Position numbers and translations under genes: made by a program
Shown: piece after piece, positions 6,997 to 58,803 of the stretch
How the letters are laid out: each line of letters starts with the position of its first letter
How positions within the stretch are numbered: the stretch's first letter is position 1
Notes under the pieces: generated by a model
Seen by the model: only the letters and a program-made list of their open reading frames with translations
Database searches by the model: none
Told to the model about the DNA's origin: nothing
Source of the DNA: Onchidella celtica
Lineage: Eukaryota > Mollusca > Gastropoda > Systellommatophora > Onchidiidae
Reading direction: 5' to 3'
Length of the DNA: 64,000 nucleotides
NCBI GenBank assembly: GCA_963931925.1
Contig: OZ007582.1
Coordinates: 23,583,224 to 23,647,223, forward strand

Positions 6997-7045
6997 ATGT
7001 CGTCCTACCATATCTCCATATTCATTGTAGCGATGATTTTGGTTC
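6997..7045 (+). CDS. Gene 1 exon 1: signal peptide
   Basis: ATG with G at -3, then about 16 residues ([16 protein letters not shown]) dominated by Ile, Val, Phe and Leu: a classic signal peptide core. The exon ends one base into a codon at a strong donor, GTAAGT. The small size, a separate first exon and phase 1 match the first exons of genes 2 and 3, though the sequence differs. Confidence 0.7.
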
Positions 7046-10000
7046 GTAAGTTGACGTTAATTATTATATGCTTTGCTAAGAGAACAGATGTAAATGTTTA
7101 TGTGGTAAGCCTGAATAGTGTCCAATGTGCAGTATTCTGAAACGGAATGCAAAGGGGACGGGAGAGAGTTTGAGTCTGAGTCTGAGTTTTACAGCGCATC
7201 GGCACGATAACGGCCAATTTGCGCCCCTCACGGTCAATTTGGGTACATTTTCTCTATTTATGTTTCGTATTCAGAGCTGCTAAGTTTAATATATAATTAA
7301 AGACATTCGTGTAATTTTAACACATTGGTAATATTCTGAAAAATTGTTTTGTATAGATCTGGAAAAAGTTTTGTAAAGGAGTATAAAAGTCATTAGATCA
7401 AGTTGGAGATCTTAGCCTCTCTCAGAAAGGACATGTGCGTTGCGGATCCACGTCATAGTTAGATAATACGGGAAAGCGCGCTGATATTGGGCGAGGTCCA
7501 TGACTCATTACGAGAAAAGTGTATTTGGTATAAGGATAAATTAATAATACGATTTTGATACAATGTCACCGCAACTAAAAAACAATCGGCTGGAGCTTTT
7601 CTAAAGCGAATGAAGTTATGAGCACCAAATAAGCTACGTCGATCCAAGCCTGAAGTGAAAGCTGAACACTGAACACAATTCAGTATTTTTCTCATTGTAA
7701 AATATGCCATTGGCTATGATCTTCCAGTTGCGCTTTCTCTGCTAGGGGGTGGTGCGAAATCCATACATGGAAAATGCGCCAGGTGTCCTGCCTTATTCCT
7801 TTCGTATCTTTGGTACAATGTTGGGAGTACAGCTCTTGTAAGGTTCACAGCTTCTCCCACTGGTCTCCTTTTTGACGCAGGCATAAATATTGACTTCCTG
7901 ATTTTCTTGTTTCCACCCAAACCAAAGTGACCATGATGGTAGCGGTGTAACTTCATCGCAGTGAGTGCCTCCCTTAGGGTCAATATACATAAAATTTTGC
8001 CTTCGTGGACCGTGACTGGCTTGAATCAGATTGGGTCTATGAGCTTGACCTCTGATAACGGAATCGCTTTAATCTTTACCAGCGTCCCCGCTAGGCTATG
8101 TACATGTGCCCCCGTGCATATGTTTGCAACCTATGTACAAAAGAAATTATTGTATACACAAGGATAATTACCTAAATAAATATCGCAATTGATAATTGTA
8201 CTTATTGAAATAATCTCTTAGCGAACTGTTTCTTTCTGTTAACATTTATGTTGCCATGTTGAGAGATTCGTGAAAATAATCTTGAAACATTTTCAAAGGT
8301 TACAAGTCATGTGTACAACATTCAGTGCACACATACAATTGTCACAAGGAAAAAAAATGCACAGCATAAAATATCTGCAGTCACTGATTGATTGTGATTG
8401 TGATTGTTCATCCTCTGTTGCCGTTGAGCGTCGAGGGGAGATGCAGTTTCTAATGGTAGGCCAACTCTGCCGCTCTTTCAACGGAGATGTTGTTGTTTCT
8501 CAGGGTTCCTATGACTCCATCAATTCATCTTTTGCGTGGTCTGCCTCTTGCTTTGTAGCCTGAGAACTTGGTGTTGAAGGCTCTCGAGGCTGGCTGACTA
8601 GGTGGCATTCGTGACAGGTGGCCAAACCATTTAAGACGTTGTTTGTCTATGAAATGCAGGCAGGATTCTGTGCCAACAACCGCTCTTACAACTTCATTTC
8701 TTTGCGTGTCTCTTCTTGTGATGTTGAGGGTTTTGCGGAGGCATTTCATTTCGCATGCAGTAATCCTGCTTTCATGAGTTTTACTTAATGTCTAGGTCTG
8801 GCATTGGTAGCAAGACGTTGGAATAAATATTGAGATGATAAGGTGTCTCTTTGTGTCTATAGAGATGCTTGGATGAGACAGGAGAGGTGCAAGCTGATAG
8901 ATGACGGTGTTGGCTTTTTGGATTCGGATTTCTATCTCTCTGTCTATGGACCCTTCTTCTGCAAACATGCAACCTAGATATTTCAAATCCTTGACGTGCT
9001 TCAATTGCTTGTTGTTCACGTGAATGTTCAGGGGACTGGGATATCGGCTGACGTTCATGACTTCTGTCTTTGATGTGCTTATTCTCATGTCAAATCTTTC
9101 GCAGCTGTTGTTGAGTGCGGTCGTGTGGGTTTGGTGGCTTTGTTGATCTGCATGAATAAGACATCGATCGTCTGCAAACAGAAGTTCATTTAGGTCTTCT
9201 GGGCTTTGATTGGCTTCATGCGTGATTTTGTCCATATAAATTATGAAAAGGAGGGGAGATAGAACACATCCCTGTCGGACTCCTGATGTTACCGAGAATC
9301 AGTTTGTGTTGCCTTCTTTTGTTTTTATTGAGCTTCTGTTGTTGGTATACAGAGGTCTCAAGTTGTCCAGCAGTTGCCCTTTGACCACAGATTATTCTAG
9401 TGTTGTCCATAGTTTGTCCCGGTTGACTCTATCGAAGGCTTTCTCTGATCTACAAAGACAATGCCGGCTTCTTTGTTGTACTCGATGGTTTTCTCGCATA
9501 TCTGTCGTAATGCGAATACCGCATCCGTGCATCCTCTTCCTTTGCGGAATCCGAACTGAGCTTCGCTCAAGTTTCCCTCTACAATAGGTCTTATCCTCCG
9601 TTCCATGATCTTCGCGTACGTTTTCCCTGTACGGCTTAGTATGGAGATGCCTCTGTATGTAGTACAGTCACGTTTGTTGCCTTTCTTCTTCCATAGTGGT
9701 ACAACGATGCTTTTCTGCCGGTCGTCTGGGCATTTCCTTTGTTTCCAGGCTCTCTTTAAAAATTCGCCTCAGCCACTGTACACATGTGTTTCCACAAGCT
9801 CATTATTATGGTTCTACTGTGAGGTCATCTGGCCCTGGGGCTTTGTTCTTGGGGCTGGTTTTAAGTGCATATTCAATTTCTCCGGCCAGAATGGGTAGTC
9901 CTGTTTGCCCTGCAAATGATGGTTTGAATTCTCGTTGTCCATTATTGCCAACTGGGTTGAGAAGTTCTTGGAAGTGTTCTTCCCACCTTTTCTTTACTGC

Positions 10001-58437: not shown

Positions 58438-58468
58438 CTCAGCAATACTTTTATATTTTTCCCCTCAG

Positions 58469-58803
58469 GATTCGATACTGCCAGTACTAGTGATAAGTGT
58501 CGTGATGCTTTGCTACAGGAAGTTTCTCTTGGGTTGAAACCTCTCTGCGACCTGCTTCAGGAATTCCTAAAATGTTTGGTGCGAGTTAGCAATCTGCACA
58601 TAAGGTTGTCATCTCAGGAAATACAGGATCTTGAAGACCAAGTTGAGGCGTTCTTACGTGGAAATGGGATTTCCTGTGATTTGGATGCTCATAAAGCAAT
58701 TCGTGAACTAAGAAGTAATGACGGTTTGGAAAATCATTCCCCTAAACTCTATTATTCGTTGACGGGCCTGGTCTTGACCCTTCTTGTTATCACTATTTTC
58801 TGA
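58469..58803 (+). CDS. Gene 3 last exon: domain B' and tail
   Basis: Acceptor TATATTTTTCCCCTCAG, phase 1, then 111 codons to TGA. It opens FDTASTSDKC. Cysteines are spaced x15, x8, x33 (EFLKC, GISCDL), then AIRELRSNDGLENHSPKL and a hydrophobic end LTLLVITIF. There is no stalk: the sequence passes directly from RELR to GLENHS. The frame is fully open, so the exon has stayed under some constraint or decayed only recently. Confidence 0.75.

Follow-up and report, generated by a model that had tools for sequence, protein, structure and literature searches.

GDNF-receptor alpha and GAS1 are glycosylphosphatidylinositol (GPI)-anchored co-receptors built as tandem arrays of helical disulfide domains, and the Ly6/uPAR/CD59 proteins combine small disulfide domains of the beta three-finger fold (8-10 cysteines) with a GPI anchor and tandem gene clusters. 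Here we compare with these systems, and with two BMP-binding domains, a tandem family of four-cysteine domains in a 64,000-nucleotide stretch (the window) of the genome of the gastropod Onchidella celtica (assembly GCA_963931925.1, contig OZ007582.1, positions 23,583,224 to 23,647,223). The N-domain of RGMB (RGMBND), one of the repulsive guidance molecules (RGMs), is described as a three-helix, three-disulfide module that binds BMP/GDF ligands and belongs to a GPI-anchored co-receptor (PMC7354924). The same source places ligand contacts in RGM helix 3 and the linker between helices 2 and 3. The N-domain of Twisted gastrulation is likewise described as a three-helix disulfide domain, which binds BMPs at the site of the type-1 receptor (PMC11167000). 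The explanation of the window genes that we favor, at roughly even odds, is that they encode GPI-anchored, ligand-binding surface receptors or co-receptors with an RGM-N-like two-disulfide module.

A four-cysteine domain family in tandem genes

The four-cysteine tandem domain family is real. A six-frame pattern search of the window found the spacing C-x15-C-x8-C-x33/34-C exactly in eight exons, all on the + strand, whereas 60 resampled versions of the window, drawn from an order-2 Markov model, contained 0.05 such matches on average and never more than 1. Leave-one-out profiles, each built from the other seven domains, regained every domain with E values of 4.9e-13 to 4.9e-24, the best unrelated open reading frame (ORF) scoring 0.043. 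A first-pass annotation of this stretch had reported the same spacing in seven complete domains; the spacing is indeed exact, and the count rises to eight with a ninth, partial copy. Its other signature residues are borne out: relative to the third cysteine, position -3 is aromatic in 8/8 domains (Tyr in 7, Phe in 1) and position -1 is Lys in 7/8. Besides the four cysteines, two further residues are invariant, an Arg at +3 from the third cysteine and a Gly at -3 from the fourth. The eight domains fall into two types, A (A1-A3) and B (B1-B5), and are distributed over the following features.

6997..7045, + strand: gene 1 exon 1, signal peptide, phase-1 donor GTAAGT
11348..11644, + strand: gene 1 exon 2, domain A1 (cysteine pattern 11377-11556), phase 1-1
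13002..13253, + strand: gene 1 exon 3, domain B1 (cysteine pattern 13031-13213), phase 1-1
13678..13977, + strand: gene 1 exon 4, domain A2 (cysteine pattern 13710-13889), phase 1-1
15061..15312, + strand: gene 1 exon 5, domain B2 (cysteine pattern 15090-15272), phase 1-1
20835..21163, + strand: terminal exon, assigned to gene 1 by phase, domain B3 (cysteine pattern 20864-21043), GPI-like tail and stop
25989..26037, + strand: gene 2 exon 1, signal peptide MFAHWIHFFALLVLIA, phase-1 donor GTATGT
31813..32103, + strand: gene 2 exon 2, domain A3 (cysteine pattern 31848-32027), phase 1-1
33488..34128, + strand: gene 2 last exon, domain B4 (cysteine pattern 33517-33699), stalk, GPI-like tail and stop
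46937..47200, + strand: partial copy of the B3 exon with its tail, in which the domain lacks its first half
52989..53037, + strand: gene 3 signal-peptide exon, a copy of that of gene 2, donor altered to GTCAAG
58469..58803, + strand: gene 3 last exon, domain B5 (cysteine pattern 58498-58677), GPI-like tail and stop

When spliced in phase 1, all three gene models are open. Including the stop, gene 1 has 493 codons (signal peptide-A1-B1-A2-B2-B3-tail), gene 2 has 327 (signal peptide-A3-B4-stalk-tail) and gene 3 has 128 (signal peptide-B5-tail). The models contain 5, 2 and 1 domains and 20, 8 and 4 cysteines, that is, four per domain and none outside. In gene 2, exon 2 finishes the signal peptide, with a putative cleavage after GTSGVQA and before Q. 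The gene 2 stalk is a Ser/Thr/Pro/Gln-rich segment of ~100 amino acids encoded by a degenerate coding repeat (PTVSQQ/PSSSQQ, 33743-34018) that is absent from the gene 3 copy. All three terminal tails (3/3) are hydrophobic through the last residue, without a cytoplasmic tail (last-20 mean hydropathy 1.96, 2.02 and 1.58), in agreement with the hydrophobic C-terminus noted at first pass; the B3 tail has a Lys third from its end. These tails fit GPI signals, and the GPI anchor is putative.

The exon layout differs in several respects from the one first proposed, in which each domain was a phase 1-1 exon and a signal-peptide exon opened each of three genes. The internal domain exons are phase 1-1, but the three terminal exons start in phase 1 and extend to the stop. 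Two of the three signal-peptide exons, those of genes 1 and 2, are sound; the donor of the third is poor (GTCAAG versus GTATGT in the gene 2 copy). Because of this altered donor, and because an A exon was not found in the gene 3 copy, gene 3 may be non-functional or may start elsewhere. Thus, the open models with five, two and one domains stand, and the third gene is doubtful. B3 is placed in gene 1 by phase alone. A looser signal-exon scan gave weak candidates upstream of it, at 17788-17851 and 19757-19811, and B3 could therefore be a separate one-domain gene like gene 3.

Known families and the predicted fold

By the searches made, the four-cysteine family is undescribed. Pfam returned only sub-threshold chance matches for 8 proteins and for 8 domains (the latter at E up to 10, a range in which the HMMER filters remove most matches above 0.1), NCBIfam, a prokaryote library, likewise gave only sub-threshold chance matches, and PDB sequence searches gave no credible match. 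A protein search with one domain region yielded 7 candidates, none at E<=0.001, and one with an eight-row alignment yielded 1285, none at E<=0.1; in both, the word prefilter and length limits could hide distant or longer relatives. A control search with RGMB gave 1134 matches (NCBI, UniRef, nr), and the named ones among the 120 listed were all from vertebrates, so that the control speaks for vertebrate coverage rather than for molluscs or other invertebrates. Rfam at gathering thresholds and phages (tblastn of one exon) gave no match. No description of the cysteine pattern appeared among the literature records listed, which is weak evidence of absence since most subscription journals lie outside that literature. 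The profile search proposed at first pass has thus returned no credible family match, and the statement that no named family has this spacing stands at the level of sequence. It is qualified by a likeness to the RGM N-domain scaffold that falls short of significance.

This likeness emerged from structure prediction, which had also been proposed. AlphaFold2 models of domains B5 (predicted local distance difference test, pLDDT, 87.3; predicted template-modeling score, pTM, 0.71) and A3 (the better model; pLDDT 92.4, pTM 0.78) are compact and helical. With the A3 model, Foldseek placed the RGMC N-domain at rank 1, and RGM N-domains, which make up 37 of 1,063,712 PDB chains, took ranks 1, 8, 9 and 13 of 45; the lack of another family near the top of such lists is no evidence against other folds. 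Among the matches listed by VIA, the first cysteine of the window domain falls on RGM Cys59/42 in 8/8 RGM rows and the fourth on Cys121/119 in 7/8, a register that assumes ungapped alignment termini. The window cysteines C1 and C4 thus align with Cys 59/121 of RGMB or 42/119 of RGMC. Moreover, RGM_N (PF06535) is a small helical domain, as the window domains are predicted to be, and both have a C-x8-C motif whose second cysteine is preceded by Tyr at -3 and followed by Arg at +3. RGMs are GPI-anchored surface proteins, and the window proteins look like proteins of this type.

However, several observations weigh against a relationship. Neither the Foldseek nor the VIA scores reach significance, and some unrelated folds equal or outscore RGM, with unrelated rows ranking above it in VIA. 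Approximately 5% of shuffles equal the sequence comparison with RGM_N, and kinship with RGMs is not supported from sequence alone. An unrelated, lineage-specific small helical domain, whose resemblance to RGM would be generic to disulfide helical bundles, is the strongest competitor, and we give it a substantial chance of about one in three. Such proteins would still be GPI-anchored and might act, for example, in immunity, gamete interaction or allorecognition. The lack of relatives in the two protein searches favors this alternative, as does the binding-domain exon being far more diverged than its flanks between tandem copies. Against it stand the cysteine register, regained at both ends in 7/8 of the listed RGM rows, the shared residues around C-x8-C and the GPI-type appearance of both groups of proteins.

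The window proteins are not RGMs. None of the four defining RGM features that we tested was found. RGM_N matched 0/8 domains within the Pfam range given above, whereas human RGM N-domain sequences matched it at 5.2e-32 to 6.7e-26. All eight window domains have four cysteines rather than the six of the RGMB N-domain (54, 59, 82, 91, 99 and 121). A Pfam scan at E<=0.01 did not detect RGM_C (PF06534) in any + frame of the segments 6990-21201, 25900-34154 and 52900-58901, although an exon split by introns could escape this search. Finally, the RGD/RGN loop that links helices 2 and 3 in RGM occurs at that place in 0/8 aligned domains; the RGN of B5 sits just before the fourth cysteine. The window domains also differ in carrying an extra predicted C-terminal helix and in occurring in up to five copies, one exon each. 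Since structure prediction nonetheless points, short of significance, to the RGM N-terminal scaffold, the fold is possibly not new; with its two disulfides, it could be related or merely analogous to that of the RGM N-domain.

The other described systems are more distant. GDNF-receptor alpha and GAS1 domains have many more cysteines than the window domains, and no GDNF family appeared among the Pfam matches of the 8 domains at E up to 10, with the HMMER filter limit given above, so membership was rejected. Membership in Ly6/uPAR was rejected because the window models are all-helical with four cysteines. The Twisted gastrulation N-domain differs in having seven disulfides in ~50 residues and in being part of a secreted glycoprotein, as described in PMC11167000.

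Candidate function and alternatives

How might such proteins work? As GPI-anchored receptors or co-receptors, they would be extracellular, each carrying a single helical module, two such modules or as many as five, with two disulfides per module. The module would be laid out as in the RGM N-domain, with C1-C3 stapling two antiparallel helices and C2-C4 locking a third helix back against them; the fold and this pairing are predicted from the models. Each module would grip a secreted or cell-surface partner, and copy number, together with the mucin-like stalk of gene 2, would set reach and avidity. Tandem duplication would diversify the binding module and leave the signal peptide and the anchor almost unchanged. 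We infer ligand binding, and a recognition role is plausible. By analogy, the partner might be a TGF-beta/BMP-type ligand, which we offer purely as a hypothesis because the RGM contact loop is not conserved in the window domains.

Alternatively, these could be structural coat or mucin-like surface proteins that have no specific ligand and use the modules as rigid spacers. The PTVSQQ/PSSSQQ stalk of gene 2 and the variable number of domains are in keeping with this possibility, but the stalk is absent from genes 1 and 3, and the module surfaces are strongly divergent while the core motif is kept. Recognition therefore fits better than spacing, and we consider a coat function improbable. Least likely is that the cluster is a relic of mostly decayed or non-expressed duplicates: the poor signal-peptide donor and missing A exon of gene 3, the truncated 46.9-kb copy and the frequent transposable element sequences would suit it, but the reading frames of genes 1 and 2 are open throughout, their splice sites are usable, and dN (nonsynonymous divergence) lies well below dS (synonymous divergence) for A1/A2 and B1/B2.

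Returning to the RGM-like module, we tentatively suggest, as an idea more likely wrong than right, that the RGM N-domain is a six-cysteine branch of an older two-disulfide modular helical domain, which has here been multiplied as phase 1-1 exons into fast-diversifying, GPI-anchored multi-module co-receptors or decoys that lack RGM_C. A genuine likeness would give a BMP co-receptor module a simpler relative and show how the module spread in the form of an exon. Otherwise, there is still a four-cysteine family for which the searches made found no relatives, marked by a defined pattern of cysteines and a fold predicted with confidence. Either way, a profile is gained for finding the family in other genomes.

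Duplication, selection and repeats

The cluster has grown through duplication. Self-comparison revealed that a segment has been duplicated in tandem, ~25 kb apart: 20965-38272 and 47002-64000 are ~80-96% identical in pieces. Genes 2 and 3 lie inside the duplicated units, and the third gene arose by this tandem duplication of ~25 kb. The truncated copy of B3 belongs to the same comparison, with 47002-47200 being 96% identical to 20965-21163 of the B3 exon.

Within gene 1, two domain pairs are under purifying selection, with dN 0.17 and dS 0.45 for A1/A2 and dN 0.17 and dS 0.67 for B1/B2. When the two regions were compared by blastn, the sequence they share consisted of the exons with at most ~20 flanking bases, after setting aside 301 bases present in both query stretches by position.

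The B4 and B5 copies show a different pattern. Their 3' flanks are 91.5% identical, an intron segment ending ~220 bases upstream is 91.7% identical and the signal-exon regions are 95.7% identical. The module is more diverged than its surroundings, since the domain exon has only 67% nucleotide identity (dN 0.44, 95% bootstrap 0.32-0.58; dS 0.41, 0.23-0.66). By contrast with the domain, the 25 codons of the tail show conservation, at dN 0.06 and dS 0.34. Because dS is raised too, positive selection on B5 was not kept as the sole reading, and replacement of the exon by that of a different paralogue is no less likely than positive selection acting point by point.

Between the duplicated units, and outside the four-cysteine genes, lies a long interspersed nuclear element (LINE), which had no match among plasmids (megablast).

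39455..42739, + strand: LINE whose two adjacent ORFs encode an endonuclease and a reverse transcriptase, with a weak C2H2-like motif at its end

A reverse transcriptase fragment of another LINE (8792-9298, - strand) lies within the first intron of gene 1. A ~290-bp repeat closely follows the signal exon of gene 1 (7169-7454) and recurs downstream of B3 (21853-22134) and of the truncated B3 copy (48263-48552); no additional signal-peptide exons were seen near the copies at 21853 and 48263. Long microsatellites, which appear as SIYLS/CLSV-coding ORFs, are present at 13969-14589, 25023-25701, 52220-52751, ~58032-58450 and 63393-63932. Some of them adjoin domain exons, and the microsatellites could promote unequal exchange.
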